The translations under genes were made by a program, and so were the position numbers. Below the pieces are notes generated by a model. The model ran no database searches, was not told the DNA's origin, and saw only the letters and a list, made by a program, of their open reading frames with translations. This document shows positions 4,274 to 31,191 of a stretch of DNA of 64,000 nt, piece by piece. Source of the stretch: Desulfatitalea tepidiphila (lineage in GTDB: Bacteria; Desulfobacterota; Desulfobacteria; Desulfobacterales; Desulfosarcinaceae); assembly GCF_001293685.1 (NCBI RefSeq), contig NZ_BCAG01000003.1, forward strand, positions 248,001 to 312,000, read 5' to 3'. Position 1 is the stretch's first letter, and each line of letters opens with the position of its first letter.

Positions 4274-5645
4274 ACGCAACCGGTTACTGATCGTCGACGA
4301 CGATGCCGGGCACTTGACTACTTTGAAGACCATTTGCCGCAGTTGGAAGTATGAGGTCCTCACGGCCACGGATGGCGGCGAAGCCGTGGCGGCCGTGCGT
4401 GCCGAGCCGGTGGATCTGGTACTCATGGACGTGCGTATGGCCCATGTGAGCGGCATCGAGGCGCTCGGGCAGATCAAGGCCTACAATCCAGCCATCCCCG
4501 TGATTATCATGACTGCCTATTCGTCGGTCGAATCGGCGGTGGAGGCGCTCAAGGCCGGCGCTTACGACTATCTGATCAAACCCCTCGATTTCGAAGAGCT
4601 CAAGATCACCATCGAGCGGGCCTGCGAACATGCCGGCCTCAAGGTCGAAAACGAACGGCTGCGGGCGCAGCTGGCCCTCGATTGGGGGACGAGCCGCATC
4701 ATCGGCAACAGCCAGGCCATGAAGGATCTCATGGAGATGATCGCCATGGTGGCGCCGTCCGATGCCACGGTGTTGATCACTGGCGAGAGCGGCACCGGCA
4801 AGGAACTGGTCGCTCGTTCCCTGCACCTCAACAGTCCGCGCAAGGATCATCCCCTGGTGGTGGTCAACTGTGCGGCCATGGCCGAATCGTTGCTCGAGTC
4901 GGAGTTGTTCGGCCACGAAAAGGGCGCCTTCACCGGGGCGGACCGACGCCGTGAGGGCCGTTTCAAACAGGCGGACCGTGGCACCCTGTTTTTGGACGAG
5001 ATCGGCGAGACATCGCCGGCCATGCAGGCCAAGCTGTTGCGCGTGCTTCAGGAGAAGGAGATTGTGCGCGTGGGCGGCGAAGAGACGCTGCCGGTGGATG
5101 TGCGCATTGTGGCCGCCACCAACCGCGACCTGGAAAAAGAGGTGAGCGAAGACCGCTTTCGGGAGGATCTATTCTACCGCCTGAACGTCATCACCCTGAA
5201 GGTGCCGCCGCTGCGGGAGCGAAGAGAAGACATCCCGTTGCTGGCCAACCATTTTCTCCACGGATTTGCCGAAAAGAATCGCAAGACGGCCAAAGGTTTC
5301 GCTCCGTTGGCCATGGACATGCTGCTCCATTACGATTGGCCCGGCAACGTGCGCGAACTGGAAAATGCGGTGGAGCGCGCCGTGGTCCTGATGACCGGCG
5401 AGCACATCACCGAAAAACAACTGCCGCTCAACATCGCCAAAGACTATGCGCAGTCCAAGGAGATCGATCCGACCCCTGCCGTTGCGCCGCCGACCGACGG
5501 CACCCGCTCCCTCGAAGAGATCGAGAAAGAGGCAATTCTGGCGACCCTGGCGGCCACCGATGGCAACAAAAGCGAAACCGCCCGGCGCCTGGGCATCACC
5601 CGCAAGACCCTGCATAACAAGCTGAAAAATTACGGTATCGGCTAA
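4266..5645 (+). CDS. Sigma-54-dependent response regulator, ZraR/NtrC-like
   Basis: Cognate regulator of the overlapping sensor kinase. The 459-residue protein has an N-terminal receiver with phospho-acceptor Asp55 in LVLMDVRM, a central AAA+ domain with Walker A GESGTGKE and the sigma-54-contact loop GAFTGA, and a Fis-type helix-turn-helix at the C-terminus (SETARRLGITRKTLHNKL). The start at 4266 overlaps the kinase stop; longer in-frame upstream sequence is kinase-coding DNA in another frame. It should activate a -24/-12 promoter when phosphorylated. No target promoter was recognised next to it. It converges on nagZ with only 7 bp between the genes. Confidence 0.95.
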   Translation: MNRRNRLLIVDDDAGHLTTLKTICRSWKYEVLTATDGGEAVAAVRAEPVDLVLMDVRMAHVSGIEALGQIKAYNPAIPVIIMTAYSSVESAVEALKAGAYDYLIKPLDFEELKITIERACEHAGLKVENERLRAQLALDWGTSRIIGNSQAMKDLMEMIAMVAPSDATVLITGESGTGKELVARSLHLNSPRKDHPLVVVNCAAMAESLLESELFGHEKGAFTGADRRREGRFKQADRGTLFLDEIGETSPAMQAKLLRVLQEKEIVRVGGEETLPVDVRIVAATNRDLEKEVSEDRFREDLFYRLNVITLKVPPLRERREDIPLLANHFLHGFAEKNRKTAKGFAPLAMDMLLHYDWPGNVRELENAVERAVVLMTGEHITEKQLPLNIAKDYAQSKEIDPTPAVAPPTDGTRSLEEIEKEAILATLAATDGNKSETARRLGITRKTLHNKLKNYGIG

Positions 5646-5652
5646 TGCCCGT

Positions 5653-6660
5653 TCAATCCAACAGAAATTTTTCCTTGGCGGCCAGGATGCGCGCCAGGGA
5701 GGCGTGGCTTAGCTGTGCCAAATCGTCGTCGGTCTGTATGGCGTGCCGGATCGCGTGGAAAGCGGCCTCGATGTTCGGTCCCGTGTGGCAGATGAGCAGA
5801 AGGTCCACGGTGCCGCTGAGACATTGGGTGACGATATCGGGTAGGGCGTAGTATTTGGCGATGGCGCCCATGTCCAGGTCATCGGTGAGCACCAGCCCTT
5901 CATATCCTATCTCATCGCGCAGCAGGTCGCCGGCCATAGTGGTGGAAATGCTGGCCGGCCATATGGGGTCGATGCGGGTGTAGCGGATATGAGAAAGCAT
6001 GAGGCCGCTCACCTCCGATTGAATGGCCGCTTCGAAGGGGATGAGGTCGCGGGACCGCAGCGTCTCCAGGTCGATCTCCAGGTCAGGCAGATCCTTATGG
6101 GAATCGAGGACCGTGCGACCGATGCCCGGGAAATGCTTGCCCACGGCCATGATGCCGTTATTCTGCAATGCTTCGATCACCAGGCGGCCCATGCGCGCGA
6201 CCCATTGTGGATCCCGGCCAAAAGCGCGTTCGAGCATGACGCTGGGGCCTTCGGGGGGTGGCACGTCGAGAACCGGTGCCATGTTCATGTTGACCCCGAT
6301 CCGGTTCAACTCGTCGGCCGTGGTCCGGGCAAAGGCGATGGCATCCGCCGGCGATGTCATGGCCGGGTTACCGGCAAATTGGGTGAAAGGCGGCTTGAGA
6401 CGCGCCACCACCCCGCCTTCCTGGTCGATAGCGACAAAGAGGGGCGGCTGCCCGCAACGGACCGCATAATCCTGGGCATCGCCGCACAGGTCGCGGATCT
6501 GCTCGGGAGAAAGAATATTGCGCGAAAAGAGGATGATGCCGCCCACCTGGAGGGTGTCGATGGCATACCTCAACTCGTCGTTGAGATCTGTGCCGGTGAA
6601 GCCGACCATCAGACGCTGTCCGGCTTTTTGACTGTCGGTGAGATCGCGAGCCTGCATCAT
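5653..6660 (-). CDS. nagZ: Beta-N-acetylhexosaminidase (GH3), NagZ-like
   Basis: Family 3 glycoside hydrolase of peptidoglycan recycling that removes terminal GlcNAc from muropeptides in the cytoplasm. The 335-residue single-domain product matches NagZ length. It has the KHFPG...DSHKDLP motif that supplies the His general acid/base, although GIG replaces the more common GHG, and VLTDDLDMGAI carrying the nucleophilic Asp. No signal peptide is seen. It starts at the first of two tandem ATGs and is followed upstream by mltG on the same strand, so cell-wall functions are paired. Confidence 0.9.
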   Translation of the reverse strand: MMQARDLTDSQKAGQRLMVGFTGTDLNDELRYAIDTLQVGGIILFSRNILSPEQIRDLCGDAQDYAVRCGQPPLFVAIDQEGGVVARLKPPFTQFAGNPAMTSPADAIAFARTTADELNRIGVNMNMAPVLDVPPPEGPSVMLERAFGRDPQWVARMGRLVIEALQNNGIMAVGKHFPGIGRTVLDSHKDLPDLEIDLETLRSRDLIPFEAAIQSEVSGLMLSHIRYTRIDPIWPASISTTMAGDLLRDEIGYEGLVLTDDLDMGAIAKYYALPDIVTQCLSGTVDLLLICHTGPNIEAAFHAIRHAIQTDDDLAQLSHASLARILAAKEKFLLD

Positions 6661-6716
6661 TGTGTTGTCCTGATCTTCCAGTGGGAAGATCCAAGAAGGT
6701 CTAAAGAGTTCAGTGC

Positions 6717-7739
6717 CTAATGGCGTTTCCGGCGCAGCTGATACTTTCGCACCGCCTCCGTATGTTCCGCGATGGTTTTCGAGAAGTAGTGCGTCCCGTC
6801 CTTTTTCGATACAAAAAAGAGGTAATCGGTTTCCGCGGGATAAAGTGCCGCTTCCAAAGCGGCCCGACCCGGATTGGCGATGGGGCCCGGCGGCAGCCCG
6901 CGGATCACGTAGGTGTTGTAGGGCGTCGCGCTACTCAGATGGCGACGGGTAATGTTTCCGTCGAACGACTCGATACCGTAGATCACCGTGGGATCGCTTT
7001 CCAGGCGCATGCGCTTTTTCAGTCGGTTATGAAAGACCGAAGCGATAATGGGACGCTCACTGGGAGCGCCGGTCTCTTTTTCGATGATCGAAGCGAGGGT
7101 GACGATGTCGTGTATCGAGAGATCGAGCTCATGGGCGCGGTTTCGCCACTCATCGGTGACGAGGGATTGGTAAGCGTTCACCATCGTCGTGATGATGCCC
7201 CTGGCCGACACCTCCCTGGGAAAATGATAGGTGTCGGGGAAGAGATACCCTTCGAGGCTGGGGCCGTCGAGTTGCAGCTCCGACACCAGCGACGGATCGC
7301 GGGCCAGCCGGCTGAATTCCTCTGCCGATGCCAGACCGGCCTTTTCGACTTCGGTCGCGACCTGGTCGATGGTGTAACCTTCCGGTATGGTGAGGCGATG
7401 CAGCAGTACCTTGCCGCTGGCCAGGATGTCGATGATTTCCATCGGTGTCATCGCCGTGGATAGCGCATATTCGCCGGCCCTGAGCCGTTTGTCGTCTCCG
7501 CTGAGCCTGGCTATGATCTTGAACCGAATGTCGCTGGTGATGACCCCTGCTTTTTCCAGCCTGGCAGAGAGCATCCCGAAGCTCTCTCCCGGGGCCACCG
7601 AGACGATGTGCGAGTGTTCCTCACCATCCGCCGGGCGATTGGCGAAGCGGTGCAGGTCGACGGCAATCCAGCCCGCAGCCCCTGCCACGGCGATCAGCAG
7701 CGCAATGATGAGCAGTAAGAGGTATTTTAATTTAAACAA
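6717..7739 (-). CDS. mltG: Endolytic murein transglycosylase MltG (YceG-like)
   Basis: Inner-membrane lytic transglycosylase thought to terminate nascent glycan strands. The 340-residue protein has one N-terminal TM helix (about residues 5-27), a LysM-like segment and the YceG domain with IIEKETGAPSERP, containing the catalytic Glu, followed by VFHNRLKKRMRLESDP. The frame opens at a TTG at 7739 with GGGGA just upstream. No in-frame ATG is available before the TM helix, so the TTG start is favoured. It lies 56 bp upstream of nagZ and is probably co-transcribed with it. Confidence 0.92.
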   Translation of the reverse strand: MFKLKYLLLLIIALLIAVAGAAGWIAVDLHRFANRPADGEEHSHIVSVAPGESFGMLSARLEKAGVITSDIRFKIIARLSGDDKRLRAGEYALSTAMTPMEIIDILASGKVLLHRLTIPEGYTIDQVATEVEKAGLASAEEFSRLARDPSLVSELQLDGPSLEGYLFPDTYHFPREVSARGIITTMVNAYQSLVTDEWRNRAHELDLSIHDIVTLASIIEKETGAPSERPIIASVFHNRLKKRMRLESDPTVIYGIESFDGNITRRHLSSATPYNTYVIRGLPPGPIANPGRAALEAALYPAETDYLFFVSKKDGTHYFSKTIAEHTEAVRKYQLRRKRH

Positions 7740-15543: not shown

Positions 15544-17466
15544 TCAACTGCCTGTCGGACGTTTGCGCAATTTACGCATATCTCCTATACGGATGGTCAG
15601 TTGGGTGGTATCAAAATATTCGATTAAAGGTATCACATATTTCCGGGACGCTCCAGTCATATCCTTGAACTGCGGCGTGGAGATCTCTTCGTGCTCGGAG
15701 AGGAAAGCCACCAGTTGATCCCTGATCTTATCGATCGCTTCCCGATGGCAATAGAGCTCCTCTTTGATTTTGATAAGATGCCCTTCGTCGATCAGCAAGG
15801 AGAGGACTTGCCGGGCCTCTTCGGCGGGAACCGAGAGCTCAGAGCAGAGCTCCTTGAAATAGGGCGGCGTGAGTCCCTCTTTTTGATAAACGGTCAACAG
15901 GTTTGTCCTCAGGGTGCGCTGGTCCACTCCTAATGCCACACGGTGTCCGGCCAGGCGCACCATGTCTTCTTCCTGCACGATGGCCTGGGCTTTCATGAGT
16001 TGCTGAAGCACGAGCAGCGCCAATTTGTTGTCCACGCCGAGGGGCAGTTTGGATTTGAGTTCCTCTTTGGACATACCCGGTTTGAGCGGGTTTTTCTGGT
16101 GGTATGCTTCGAGCAGGTCGGTGACCGCCTTTTGGAGGTCGGAAACGGCCTTCTGGTGAACGTAGCGCCTCTTTTCTTTGTCGACCAGGATGGCCGTTCG
16201 TTTGGAGGTAATGTCCTGGAGGATCCGTTCCAGCTGTTTCTCCGGCAGGTTGGTCATGATCAACAGCTCGCCGAAGGCACAGCCTTTGAATCCACTGTTT
16301 TCAATATGCAGGCGGACCACCTCCTCGGGAGGGGCTTCCGTCAGAAGCCGCAGTGCCTCGATGATGTCGGGCCGATGGCGTTTGTGTTTGGGCGGAATCG
16401 GATCGAGAATGGCACCGCCACCGATGGTCCGGATTGGGGAATAGCTGCGTAGCACGTAACGGTCGTCTTTGACGAGGGTCACCGGTACATCCATTCTGAT
16501 TTGGATCGGGGCATGCTCTCCGGGTCGGGCCTCTTCCCGATCGAGCAGCACGACCACTGCCATGATTTCATTGGTGCCGCTGTGAAATCGCACCCGGGTT
16601 CTGTTTTTGAGCGGTTTGGCGTTACTGGCCAGATAGAGCAGATCGGCATCCACCATGTAGCTGGGGATTAGCTCTTCGGGTTTGGCGAGGACATCCCCCC
16701 GGTTGACCGCCGCCTTTTCCAGCCCCTGAAAGTTAATGGCCGTGCGCATGCCCGCTTCGGCCTGGGTCAGGCTCTGGTTGTGAACTTGAAGCCCCCTGAC
16801 TTTGGAAACCACCCCCGAGGGATAGAGCATGACCCGATCCCCAACGGCCACCTTGCCCGATATGAGCGTTCCGGTGATCACCGTGCCGAATCCTTTCATG
16901 CTGAAGACGCGGTCGACGGGCAGGCGGAACAGGCCGGTAGCCGTCTTGGCAGGGATGTGTTCGCAAATGCGGTCGAGCGTGGCGATGAATTCGGGCAGGC
17001 CTTGTCCGGTAATGGCCGACACCGGCACCACCGGTGCCTCATCGAGAAAAGTTCCCCGGGTGAAGTCGGCGATCTCCTCCTGCACCATGGCCAGCCACTC
17101 TTCGTCCACCATGTCACGCTTGGTGATGACGACCACGCCGTGGCGGATGCCGAGCAGGGTACAGATTTCCATGTGTTCCCGGGTTTGCGGCATGATGCCT
17201 TCATCGGCCGCGATGACCAGCGCGACCAGATCGATACCCGTTGCGCCGGCGACCATATTTTTGACGAACTTTTCATGGCCTGGGACATCCACGATGCCCA
17301 GGCGTTGGCCGCTGGGCAGCTCGAGGTGTGCAAAACCCAGCTCGATCGTGATGCCGCGCAGCTTCTCCTCTTTGAGCCGATCCGTGTTGATACCGGTCAG
17401 GGCTTTGATCAGTGTGGTTTTGCCATGATCGATATGTCCGGCAGTGCCTAAGATGATTGGCTTCAC
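15544..17466 (-). CDS. selB: Selenocysteine-specific translation elongation factor SelB
   Basis: GTPase that carries Sec-tRNA to the ribosome at UGA codons followed by a SECIS hairpin. The 640-residue protein opens with the G domain ([41 protein letters not shown]). Beta-barrel domains follow, including [14 protein letters not shown], and then a long C-terminal region of winged-helix repeats (about 380-640) that bind SECIS RNA. The SelB-specific length and [10 protein letters not shown] separate it from EF-Tu. No selA, selD or selC gene was found in the window. Its presence shows that the host can decode UGA as selenocysteine, relevant to the gene at 29789. Confidence 0.96.
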
Positions 17467-27164: not shown

Positions 27165-29627
27165 GTGCATGAAGCCACCCCCAACGGACCAACGATTCAC
27201 CTGATCGACGTGGCCGTCGCCTTGCCCGTTTTCGATTCCTATACCTATCGGGTGCCGGTCGATCTATTGCCGGATCTGGCGGTCGGCAAACGGGTGCTGG
27301 TGCCTTTCGGCAGGCGCCGGGTGACCGGTTATATGCTCCAATTCACGGACCAGATCCCCGATGCGGCGGTTAAGAACATCGTCTCCGTGCTTGACGACCA
27401 GCCGCTTTTCCCGCCTGGAATGATATCCTTTTTTCGATGGACGGCCGATTACTACATGCATCCGCTGGGCGAGGTGATTCAAACGGCTTTGCCCACCGGT
27501 ATCAACCTGGCCGAACAGGTGCGCTACACCATCAGCGACCACGGACGCCGGGAACTGGGCGGTCAGCCTCTGGCCCCATGGGAACGCATCTTATGCGACC
27601 ACCTTTTAGAGGGCCCCTGCCGGCCGGCCTTTCTCAGGCGCCTGGCCGGCGACGCCTTTTCCCAGTCACGTCTTGACGCATGGGAAAAGCAGGGTTGGAT
27701 CGTTCGACAGCAGGCCCTTTCGGGCGGTCGGACGCGACCCAAGACCGTTCGCTTCGCGAGTCTGACCGCAACTCCTTCCCTGGATATGGGGCGGTTATCC
27801 TCCGCACGGCGTACGATCATGGAGGTGTTGATGACTCATGGGCCAGTGGCGTTGAGTGATCTCAAGAGCGTTCTGCCCACAGCGGCCCATCTGGTCCGCG
27901 CCATGGCCAGAGACGGGCAACTCAGGATCGAGGAGCGGGTCGTCTACCGAGACCCGCTGGGAGATCCGATTACCCCGGACCAACCCCCGAAATTGACCGC
28001 CGAGCAGCATCAGGCCGTCACTTCCATGGGGGCGGCCCTGGGAAAGGGGTTTCACACCTTTCTGCTGGCCGGCGTAACCGGATCGGGCAAAACCGAGGTC
28101 TACCTGCAACTTGCGGCCATGGCCCTCGAACAAGGACTTGCCGTCCTCGTGCTGGTCCCTGAGATTGCCCTCATCTCCCAGACCGAGCGCGCCTTCCGGG
28201 CCCGCTTCGGCGAGTGCGTGGCTCTGTTGCACAGCGGATTGTCCAGCGGCGAGAGGTACGATCAGTGGCGAAGGATCATGGCGGGTGAGGCCACCATTGC
28301 CGTGGGTGCCCGCTCGGCCATCTTCGCGCCGTTTGCCGGCACCATCGGATTGATTATCGTCGACGAAGAGCACGACGATTCATACAAGCAGGAAGGGGCC
28401 TTGCGCTACAATGCGCGCGATCTGGCCGTGGTGCGCGCCCGCCAGCACGGTGCGGTGGCAGTCCTCGGTTCGGCCACGCCGTCGCTGCAATCCGCCTATA
28501 ACGCACTTAATGGCAAATTTTCCAAGATCAGCCTCTATGAACGGGTAGACCGCCAGATGCTGCCCCGGATCGTGATCCAGGACCTCACGGCGATTCGCGA
28601 AGAGCGCGGCATCCGGCGTTTTCTGACCACCGAACTGTTGGCAGCCATGCGCACCACCCTGGAGCGCAAGGAACAGGTACTGCTCTTTTTGAACCGCCGC
28701 GGGTTCGCCGGCAGCCTGATCTGCGCCGATTGCGGCCAGGCCGTACGCTGCAAACACTGCGATATTTCGTTGACCCACCATCAGCAGGCCAACGTCTATC
28801 AGTGTCACTACTGCGGCTTCAGCCGGTCCGCGGTCTCCCGCTGCGAACGGTGCGGATCGGCGCGGATCATCGGCCTGGGGATCGGTACCGAGCGTCTGGA
28901 AATGGAGATCCAGAAGATTTTTCCCACGGCCCGCGTGGCCCGCATGGACCGTGACACCACCCGGCGCAAGGGGGCCCTGATCAAGATCCTCAAGGATTTG
29001 CGCGACCGACGCATCGATATCCTGATCGGCACCCAGATGGTGGCCAAGGGCCACGACTACCCCAACATCACCCTGGTGGGCATCATCTGCGCCGACCTGT
29101 CGCTGAGCTTGCCCGATTTCCGGGCCGGAGAGCGCACCTTTCAACTGCTGGCCCAGGTGGCCGGTCGCGCAGGACGCGGCAAGGTGCCGGGCCATGTAAT
29201 CCTGCAAACCTATAACCCGGCGCACTTCAGTATTACCACGGCCCGTGACCAGGATTACGACGAATTTTTCCGGCAGGAGATCGAATTCCGAAAAGTCTTG
29301 GGGTATCCGCCCTTTACCCGCATGGTGCAGATCCGCATGACCGGGCCGGACGCGCAGCGTCTGGCCGCTTTTGCGGAGCGGCTGGGCGAAGCGGGTCGGC
29401 AGATGCTGGCCCAACGTCCGGTCGATGGCCGGGTGGAGATCATGGGCCCCATCGAGGCGCCGCTGCACCGGATCGCCAATCAATTCCGCTGGCAGATGTT
29501 GCTCAAGGGGCCGGCTGTCGTTCCGCTGCATCGGTTCGTACGCGAGCTGCTCGCCCACAAGGAGGTTCAGGCGAACAGGGGTCGCATCCACGTCGGCGTG
29601 GATGTCGATCCCGTTTTTCTCATGTGA
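27165..29627 (+). CDS. priA: Primosomal protein N' (replication restart helicase PriA)
   Basis: 3'-5' helicase that reloads the replisome at stalled forks. The 820-residue protein has an N-terminal DNA-binding domain (VALPVFDSYTYRVP, GKRVLVPFGRR), helicase motifs GVTGSGKTEVYLQ (Walker A) and VDEEHDDSYKQ (DEEH), and the paired zinc-binding Cys motifs CADCGQAVRCKHC and CHYCGF...CERCGS. Motifs V/VI follow (GTQMVAKGHDYP, QVAGRAGRG). The start is a GTG at 27165 without a strong ribosome-binding site; no better in-frame ATG precedes the conserved N-terminus. Length is somewhat above the E. coli protein. Confidence 0.96.
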   Translation: MHEATPNGPTIHLIDVAVALPVFDSYTYRVPVDLLPDLAVGKRVLVPFGRRRVTGYMLQFTDQIPDAAVKNIVSVLDDQPLFPPGMISFFRWTADYYMHPLGEVIQTALPTGINLAEQVRYTISDHGRRELGGQPLAPWERILCDHLLEGPCRPAFLRRLAGDAFSQSRLDAWEKQGWIVRQQALSGGRTRPKTVRFASLTATPSLDMGRLSSARRTIMEVLMTHGPVALSDLKSVLPTAAHLVRAMARDGQLRIEERVVYRDPLGDPITPDQPPKLTAEQHQAVTSMGAALGKGFHTFLLAGVTGSGKTEVYLQLAAMALEQGLAVLVLVPEIALISQTERAFRARFGECVALLHSGLSSGERYDQWRRIMAGEATIAVGARSAIFAPFAGTIGLIIVDEEHDDSYKQEGALRYNARDLAVVRARQHGAVAVLGSATPSLQSAYNALNGKFSKISLYERVDRQMLPRIVIQDLTAIREERGIRRFLTTELLAAMRTTLERKEQVLLFLNRRGFAGSLICADCGQAVRCKHCDISLTHHQQANVYQCHYCGFSRSAVSRCERCGSARIIGLGIGTERLEMEIQKIFPTARVARMDRDTTRRKGALIKILKDLRDRRIDILIGTQMVAKGHDYPNITLVGIICADLSLSLPDFRAGERTFQLLAQVAGRAGRGKVPGHVILQTYNPAHFSITTARDQDYDEFFRQEIEFRKVLGYPPFTRMVQIRMTGPDAQRLAAFAERLGEAGRQMLAQRPVDGRVEIMGPIEAPLHRIANQFRWQMLLKGPAVVPLHRFVRELLAHKEVQANRGRIHVGVDVDPVFLM

Positions 29628-29698: not shown

Positions 29699-29727
29699 TT
29701 GACAATCAATAGCGCTCGGCCTATAGA
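29699..29727 (+). promoter_or_regulatory. Strong sigma-70-type promoter for the DUF1573 selenoprotein operon
   Basis: A perfect TTGACA (29699-29704) and TATAGA (29722-29727) are separated by 17 bp. The predicted start lies about 55 bp before the ATG at 29789, which has AAGGAGAAGGA in front. The good promoter and ribosome-binding site argue that the TGA-containing gene downstream is expressed and not decaying. Confidence 0.65.
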
Positions 29728-29788
29728 TTTGGCATGGAAAGCCGATAGTGAGTCGATCAACGGAATGCAAAGGAGAAGGAACTGCCCG

Positions 29789-30556
29789 ATGTTACACAAA
29801 TTCACCCATCTTACGATCATGCTGGCCGTCTCTTTGTTTGGCCTGATCGGGTTCGTGGACAACGGCCTGTGCGATACACGACCGGCCGCTCAATCCCAGG
29901 AGCCGGCCCAAACCGCCAAGACACCCAAAGTGTATTTTCCCGACCCCATCCACAAGTTTGCGACGGTCATGGAAGGCGCCGTCATCAAGCACGACTTTAT
30001 CGTCGAAAATCAGGGCGACGCCCCCCTGGAGATCCACAAAGTGCAACCCGATTGAGGCTGCTCGGTGGCCTCCCATTCGGGCCAGATTCCTGCCGGCGGC
30101 AAGGGAAAAATCAGTGTGGTGGTCGATACCGCCAATCGGGGCGGCCAGCTCTTGACCAAAAGATTTCGTGTTTACACCAATGATCGCCGGGAGCGGCAGA
30201 CCGTGCTCGCGGTGAGCGGGCAAGTGAACGCCTATATCATGGTTTCGCCGGCCCGTGTGCGACTGGTCGGCCGGTTGGGCGAAACGCTTTCCCAGCAGGT
30301 GCGCATCGTACCCCAGGGTTATCCGTTTGCCATTCGGGAGGCCAAGGCCAGCAACGGCGCGGATATCCGCATTTCCATCGAACCTGCTGGCCAACCGCCG
30401 GCCGGGCAGGGATTTGTGCTGACCGTGACCAGCACCCGGCGTGAAGCCGGCAGCTTCGGAGACTATATCCTGATCCAAACCGACCTCAAGGAGAAGCCGA
30501 CCATCGGCATTCCCGTGAGTGGTCGGCTCTATGCAAAGCAACCCCCTGAAAAGTGA
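29789..30556 (+). CDS. Exported DUF1573 protein, predicted selenoprotein with Sec at the in-frame TGA
   Basis: Reading through the TGA at 30053-30055 as selenocysteine gives one 255-residue protein. It has a signal peptide (TIMLAVSLFGLIGFV, cleavage probably near GLC/DT), then a DUF1573 domain with FPDPIHKFATVMEGAVIKHDF and ENQGDAPLEIHKV, followed by Sec89-Gly-Cys91 and QIPAGGKGKISVVVDT. DUF1573 proteins normally have a Cys-Gly-Cys motif at this point, so TGA stands exactly at the first Cys. Both halves share one frame and both match the family, which argues against decay. A hairpin follows the TGA. The C-terminal half (about 140-255) is a second beta-sandwich. The stop overlaps the HAD gene. 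Role unknown; an extracytoplasmic redox or metal site is possible. Confidence 0.82.
30057..30100 (+). promoter_or_regulatory. Candidate bacterial SECIS hairpin
   Basis: Just after the TGA, GCTGCT (30057-30062) can pair with GGCGGC (30095-30100) using two G-U pairs. Inside it, TGGCC (30066-30070) pairs perfectly with GGCCA (30080-30084) around a 9-nt loop. Size and placement fit a bacterial SECIS, the SelB-binding element. The apical loop does not obviously show the G-first pattern of the E. coli fdhF element. An alternative pairing GAGGC/GCCTC (30054-30058/30068-30072) also exists. Hand-folded only. Confidence 0.5.
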
Positions 30557-31191
30557 GCCATATTACATTGAAACCGAATGATCTGAAAGTGGTGGCCTTC
30601 GATTGCGACGGCGTGATGTTTGATTCATCCCGGGCCAATCGGGCCTATTACGACCATATTCTGCAACACTTCTGCCGGCCGCCCATGACCGATGCCCAGT
30701 TCGCCTATGCCCACATGCATACGGTCAGCGGTGCCCTGGCCCACCTGTTCGAAGACTCCGACCTTCTCGTCGAGGTGCGCGCTTACTGCCGCGAGTTGAG
30801 CTACATGCCCTTCATCCCGCACATGGTGATTGAACCCCATCTCAAGGAGTTGCTCGCATTTTTGCGTCCTGCTTATGGGACCGGCATCGCCACCAATCGG
30901 ACCAACACCATGGCCCGTGTGCTCGAAGTGCACGGGTTGACCGATTATTTCGATAAAGTGGTGACGGCCAGCGATGTCCACAATGCCAAGCCCGACCCGG
31001 AGCAGCTTCTGGTGCTTCTGGACCATTTTCAAATCGAACCGTTGCAGATGCTCTTCATCGGCGATTCCGAGCTCGACGCCATGGCCGCCCAAGATGCGGG
31101 CGTTCCTTTCGTCGCGTTCGGCAACCCCGCCCTGGAAGCCGAGGTGCATTTGCAGAATCTGGGGCAGCTCAAGCGGCTTTTGACAACCTGA
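30553..31191 (+). CDS. HAD-superfamily hydrolase (phosphoglycolate phosphatase-like)
   Basis: Predicted cytosolic phosphatase of 212 residues. Motif I is FDCDGVMFDS with nucleophile Asp17 and Asp19, motif II is ATNRTN, and the late motifs are KPDPEQL and FIGDSELDAMAA. A helical cap lies between motifs I and II, as in the Gph/phosphomutase group. Substrate cannot be told. The GTG start at 30553 overlaps the selenoprotein gene's TGA stop as GTGA, so translation is probably coupled and the two genes form an operon. Confidence 0.88.
   Translation: MSHITLKPNDLKVVAFDCDGVMFDSSRANRAYYDHILQHFCRPPMTDAQFAYAHMHTVSGALAHLFEDSDLLVEVRAYCRELSYMPFIPHMVIEPHLKELLAFLRPAYGTGIATNRTNTMARVLEVHGLTDYFDKVVTASDVHNAKPDPEQLLVLLDHFQIEPLQMLFIGDSELDAMAAQDAGVPFVAFGNPALEAEVHLQNLGQLKRLLTT

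Follow-up and report, generated by a model that had tools for sequence, protein, structure and literature searches.

An OS_HP2-family (DUF1573) gene of Desulfatitalea tepidiphila with an in-frame TGA very probably decoded as selenocysteine

Introduction

Selenoproteins with a Sec-Gly-Cys (U-G-C) motif in a DUF1573 domain have been catalogued before. A DUF1573 domain-containing protein with UGC is tabulated in PMC9312934 and PMC13188914, and the first of these cites a 2007 paper on the Olavius symbiont as its source. The 2008 selenoprotein list of PMC2398784 carries the entry "OS_HP2, pfam07610, UxC"; its figures, 2, 2 and 354, probably count Sec sequences, then samples, then homologues with Cys. 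NCBIfam profile NF041425 is named "OS_HP2 family (seleno)protein". The accessible text of the open literature yielded no function for OS_HP2 or DUF1573 proteins, and the open literature yielded nothing on selenoproteins of Desulfatitalea.

The DNA analyzed here, called the window, is a stretch of 64,000 nucleotides from the 5.6 Mb genome of D. tepidiphila (G000:C3:248001-312000). A first-pass annotation proposed that one of its genes encodes a new selenoprotein. At the level of the family the word "new" does not hold. The protein passes the curated cut-off of NF041425 (100 bits; Table 1), and by this score the gene is a further member, in a new genome, of the family that PMC9312934, PMC13188914 and PMC2398784 already list in their tables.

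Results

The gene is read on the forward strand from ATG 29789 to TGA 30554-30556, and TGA 30053-30055 is its sole interruption. The first-pass annotation described two open stretches of one frame parted only by this TGA, a downstream half without a further stop, and a HAD-family hydrolase gene whose start overlaps the final stop. Each of these descriptions is correct, and the PF07610 (DUF1573) match spans the TGA (residues 52-146, gathering cut-off 26.1 bits). The Pfam matches of the product are DUF1573 and HYDIN Ig. Around the motif the product reads ...HKVQPD-U-GCSVASHSG..., with U-G-C at residues 89-91. If the annotation stopped at TGA 30055, nearly two thirds of the OS_HP2 protein would be missed. 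The differently contiged assembly of Desulfatitalea sp. UBA4791 (L143) has 0 differences over 12,000 compared positions, the TGA included, so an assembly error is an unlikely source of the TGA. The ribosome-binding site and the signal peptide were said to be intact; by eye the former is present and the latter is probable. The promoter is plausible by eye, but it is missing from the output of a consensus promoter scan that demands T at the last -10 position. An antisense frame of 249 aa (window 29792-30541, reverse strand) overlies the gene and is probably a by-product of codon use.

Table 1. Features of the OS_HP2 locus and its surroundings, in window coordinates.
Feature	Position	Strand	Remarks
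selB, Sec-specific elongation factor	15544..17466	-	TIGR00475 374.6 bits, cut-off 242.25
priA, frequent upstream neighbor	27165..29627	+	in 15/21 wide stretches
Possible sigma-70 promoter TTGACA-17-TATAGA	29699..29727	+	by eye; TTGACA 29699-29704, TATAGA 29722-29727
Ribosome-binding site AAGGAGAAGGAA	29770..29781	+	by eye; AAGGAG 29770-29775
OS_HP2-family (DUF1573) selenoprotein gene	29789..30556	+	255 aa, Sec = residue 89; PF07610 65.3 bits, NF041425 122.3 bits
Probable signal peptide, ~residues 1-28	29789..29872	+	by eye; residues 1-41 pLDDT < 50
In-frame TGA, read as selenocysteine	30053..30055	+	codon 89 from ATG 29789; followed by GGC TGC
SECIS-like hairpin region inside the CDS	30053..30097	+	family covariation; model R1 46 bits; own stability unremarkable
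TGC, second residue of the U-G-C pair	30059..30061	+	Cys in 108/109 aligned rows
HAD-family hydrolase gene	30553..31191	+	GTG start shares 4 nt with the end of the selenoprotein gene

Relatives were found at E <= 1e-8 in 258 of the 291 genomes of the window's order. Among the matches listed for the order, an eye count gives nine rows without an internal stop and one TGA in each of the others, three of the TGA rows holding TAG or TAA as well; judged from these matches, the Sec form is the rule. The alignment of 120 loci to one profile gave 119 rows. The motif column holds TGA in 82 rows (the window gene included), TGC in 20 and TGT in 6, and the remainder are one row with AGC and ten in which the column is absent, all of them further stretches of already counted loci. 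The 82 TGA and 26 Cys rows are not a frequency, because the loci were picked by score and later for Cys forms. They place the TGA at the family's first Cys of Cys-Gly-Cys, as the first-pass annotation had it. One OS_HP2-like match, G336:C274:20763-21023, has two internal TGA codons.

Sec and Cys have been exchanged repeatedly. A quick maximum-likelihood tree built with the motif residue masked carries 13 Sec/Cys changes, at least six of them forced by starred (well-supported) branches, and masking the residue before the motif as well leaves 12 label changes. One change falls in the window's own genus, between a Sec copy (L005) and a Cys copy (L066) of one genome. The latter, a paralogue in G243, a genome that also carries a Sec copy, has the motif C-N-C, with Asn for Gly. 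Among 81 Sec forms the residue before the motif (window residue 88) is Gly 65 times and Asp 12 times; it is Ser in 12 of 25 Cys forms. A mean of 4.7 of 6 independent pairs differ in this direction and 0.0 in the opposite one (median p 0.0625), so that a preference for Gly or Asp before Sec and Ser before Cys is suggestive only.

The reading frame downstream of the TGA is conserved. All 81 Sec genes stay open there for at least 158 codons. The dN/dS ratio downstream of the TGA is 0.09-0.41 in 12 of 12 chosen pairs, which are mostly near saturation, with downstream dS < 1 in only 4 of the 12; upstream it is 0.08-0.40 in the 11 computable pairs. These ratios indicate that the downstream half is under purifying selection. 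A high downstream substitution rate had been named as a sign of decay, and the ratios point the other way.

A hairpin after the TGA was examined in the family and in the window gene. The comparison used the 45 nt from the TGA on, a structure taken from L118, and 74 Sec sequences from outside the genus. In these sequences 77.0% of cells are paired, compared to 55.1% for the best slid version, and double-change cells number 77 versus 30.5 in shuffles (0/500). The 19 Cys sequences have 51.8% of cells paired, without an excess of covariation. Synonymous-shuffle folding gave a mean z of -1.23 for 81 Sec genes versus -0.16 for 25 Cys genes, with a p of 1.4e-5 that ignores relatedness. RNAalifold returned no consensus structure for the 74 Sec sequences, and an Rfam scan over the window at gathering thresholds gave no match. 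For the OS_HP2 family as a whole we take a SECIS hairpin to be well supported, by covariation among its Sec forms.

The window's own copy is less regular. Covariance model R1, built without the genus, scores its hairpin at 46 bits (E 2.3e-11), and the sequence-only model R2 already gives 33.8 bits on the same region. Several Cys genes also score with the hairpin model (L087, 39.7 bits), and their gain over R2 is as large as that of Sec genes. R1 is therefore not decisive for the window's own hairpin. This copy breaks 4 of 12 consensus pairs, and its folding is ordinary, with a synonymous-shuffle z of -0.34 and dinucleotide-shuffle z values of 0.10, 0.28 and -0.01. A SECIS hairpin in the window gene itself is likely. 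The hairpin test that the first-pass annotation proposed came out in favor as covariation in the Sec and not the Cys forms; the window copy is imperfect.

The source genome encodes the selenium machinery. The first-pass annotation placed selB near the gene, and the profile score agrees (Table 1). The genome also has selA (G000:C1, 620 bits), tRNA-Sec (selC; G000:C3, 73.4 bits) and selD (G000:C1:801085-802008, L152, 380.4 bits), all over cut-off. The selD gene contains one in-frame TGA, a Sec form of SelD is known, and SelD of this genome is probably a selenoprotein too. Co-occurrence across genomes told little, because tRNA-Sec is so common in the phylum (over cut-off in 273 of 297 sampled genomes). 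A strong tRNA-Sec match accompanies 56 of 60 TGA-form versus 42 of 51 Cys-only genomes (p 0.084, not significant), where the strong/weak line of E 1e-10 is our own choice, the TGA-form class counts a TGA at any column of the match, and 111 of the 112 matched genomes are counted, the one with two TGA (G336) being set aside. Four TGA-form genomes are without a strong match. In G003 (L035), a genome 97% complete that carries the Sec form, even the best match to tRNA-Sec is weak (E 5.3e-8), which may reflect an assembly gap or loss of the machinery.

AlphaFold2, run on a four-row alignment, predicts an all-strand protein of two Ig-like domains (mean pLDDT 81.1, pTM 0.60; two of the five models reach only ~58). 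The blocks that hold the motif have pLDDT values of 93 and 94, and U-G-C lies between strands 80-87 and 91-96 of the model. The best Foldseek matches in the PDB are cilium central-apparatus chains with Ig domains of the HYDIN/central-apparatus type, and the first 50 also include CEP192 SPD-2 domains and the Porphyromonas protein 2qsv, whose function is unassigned; over whole chains the TM-scores on the query reach only 0.24 to 0.43. A sequence search of solved structures gave one match only, at E 0.081, which is not meaningful. A thioredoxin fold is not what the model shows; it matches Ig-type domains, as do the Pfam assignments. In 68 of 81 Sec forms and in 21 of 25 Cys forms the domains have no Cys or Sec outside the motif, so we infer that its two residues act as a pair. 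His68, Asn74 and Gly76 show little or no variation.

The usual setting in the order is priA - OS_HP2 - HAD. Among 21 wide stretches, two of them centered on Cys copies, HAD is present in 17 and priA in 15. HAD follows 53 of 79 Sec genes with enough flank versus 2 of 24 Cys genes, a contrast that is confounded because the two sets differ in taxonomy. The gap between OS_HP2 and HAD is within 10 nt in 36 of 51 cases, and 15 of the 51 are a 4-nt overlap. The pair recurs outside the order (L140).

A second type of neighbor is MauE, a presumed membrane redox protein that would carry electrons or reducing power from one side of the membrane to the other. Two loci of one family (f30) have MauE and OS_HP2 in one frame of 382 codons. 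L085 1571-2716 (reverse strand, G090) is the Cys form, with MauE (PF07291) at residues 16-145 and DUF1573 (PF07610) at 186-277, both over cut-off. L156 1694-2839 (reverse strand, G030) is the Sec form; its MauE part was seen by tblastn, and U-G-C lies in the same frame with the TGA as the sole stop between. Both are candidates for a fused membrane-exported redox protein, and an internal start within either frame is conceivable. No mention of a MauE-OS_HP2 fusion was found in the open literature, where the best matches listed for selenoprotein with MauE are all off topic by title and MauE with DoxX gave nothing on topic by title.

A separate MauE gene lies directly upstream on the same strand in L032, L040, L041, L046 and L050 (L040 and L046 are nearly identical) and in L157, L158 and L159. 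Most OS_HP2 genes lack this arrangement; one query finds it at 5 of 81 Sec genes and at 1 of 25 Cys genes. The mere presence of MauE means little, because 229 of 291 genomes of the order have PF07291; adjacency and fusion mean more. MauE in the window genome sits on another contig, and the ten genes scanned around the window copy include no rhodanese, thioredoxin-like or MauE gene. A rhodanese gene stands beside MauE in L032. In L068 (G226, same genus), OS_HP2 lies among ArsR, rhodanese, thioredoxin-like, MauE, ArsP permease and ArsR genes; this copy belongs to a different OS_HP2 lineage of the genus, and priA and HAD do not adjoin it. In L124 a gene at 5540-7132 that joins cation-efflux and MauE domains is directly upstream of an OS_HP2 Sec gene. 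The MauE sequences of L124, L068, L032, L085 and L156 bear a C-G-C of their own.

Discussion

The explanation that we hold with good confidence for the data as a whole is an exported OS_HP2 selenoprotein in which Sec is read at UGA 30053 and would form a redox pair with Cys. Its most secure part is the decoding itself. Alternation of TGA and Cys in relatives, a hairpin that covaries in Sec forms only, and purifying selection downstream strongly support Sec at the first position of U-x-C, as the first-pass annotation had supposed, and we regard decoding of TGA 30053-30055 as Sec as very probable on this comparative evidence. SelB with Sec-tRNA would read the UGA, aided by a SECIS hairpin within the ~42 nt that follow, a step with strong comparative support. 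After export, the protein is predicted to fold into two Ig-like domains of the HYDIN/ASH type, with Sec-Gly-Cys placed between two strands in the model. The Sec/Cys pair would then cycle between selenol-thiol and selenenylsulfide and may exchange electrons, in either direction, with a MauE-type membrane protein.

The TGA could instead be a nonsense mutation in a decaying pseudogene, a view for which only the presence of the TGA and the ordinary folding stability of the hairpin in the window gene would speak. The same TGA column in 82 genes, the long downstream frames and dN/dS well below 1 make this extremely improbable, and for the family we reject it on the shared column and the downstream selection. 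The first-pass annotation also proposed that the motif serves redox chemistry or metal binding outside the cytoplasm. This is still a deduction; MauE adjacency and fusion favor extracytoplasmic redox over soft-metal binding. Finding the fusions moved our estimate for a redox role with a MauE-like partner from somewhat below even to slightly above it. The competing reading, to which we give about one chance in four, has Sec-Gly-Cys bind a soft metal or metalloid (Cu, Hg, Zn, As) in a carrier outside the cytoplasm. It draws on the ArsR-family regulators and the ArsP_1 permease that flank L068, on the joined cation-efflux and MauE domains of L124, and on PMC13188914, which has an SO_0444 Cu/Zn efflux transporter with U-x-C and allows that some other families may use Sec to bind a metal. 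However, most members offer only two candidate ligands, the rhodanese, thioredoxin-like and MauE neighbors and the MauE fusions fit redox better, and the window copy has none of these neighbors among the ten genes scanned.

Decoding of the UGA may also gate HAD. Without selenium, ribosomes would stop ~500 nt before the 4-nt overlap, and HAD translation would fall and become selenium-responsive. By eye there is no ribosome-binding site before GTG 30553, and the recurrence of the pair outside the order, the many short gaps and the frequency of HAD after Sec genes agree with such coupling. Short gene overlaps are common in bacterial operons, though, 15 of 51 gaps exceed 10 nt, and the Sec/Cys contrast carries the taxonomic confounding described above; we consider gating unlikely. 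A broader scheme is offered tentatively and is doubtful as a whole: an extracytoplasmic selenium electron relay on an Ig fold, in which electrons would pass from C-G-C of MauE to U-G-C, within one chain in L156, and be used by rhodanese, thioredoxin-like or metal-efflux partners, while in the priA-HAD setting found in the window this UGA may control translation of the hydrolase as well.

Fusion to MauE or adjacency to it in several lineages gives OS_HP2 a concrete candidate partner, and the MauE fusion is the best lead to OS_HP2 function. On the predicted model, OS_HP2 would be a non-thioredoxin scaffold for a Sec-x-Cys pair.

Compared with known systems, the window protein is closest to OS_HP2 as defined by NF041425. 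It shares the UGC motif and the Pfam domain, and no distinguishing feature was found; NF041425 models 98 positions, the second Ig-like domain lies beyond them, and the comparison with named members stops there. The Cys (C-G-C) homologues of DUF1573 match the same profile and column and alternate with the Sec form on the tree, but they have Cys instead of Sec, no covarying hairpin, and more often Ser before the motif. The UGC Prx-like and TlpA-type selenoproteins of PMC9312934 and PMC13188914 share the three-residue UGC; the reviews label them thioredoxin-superfamily, whereas the window model matches Ig-type domains. The SO_0444 family Cu/Zn efflux transporter (NF033936, UxC in PMC13188914) shares the U-x-C spacing, but it is a transporter by name. 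MauE (PF07291), which is joined to OS_HP2 in L085 (Cys form) and in L156 (Sec form), is a different domain and would be a partner of OS_HP2 rather than a relative.
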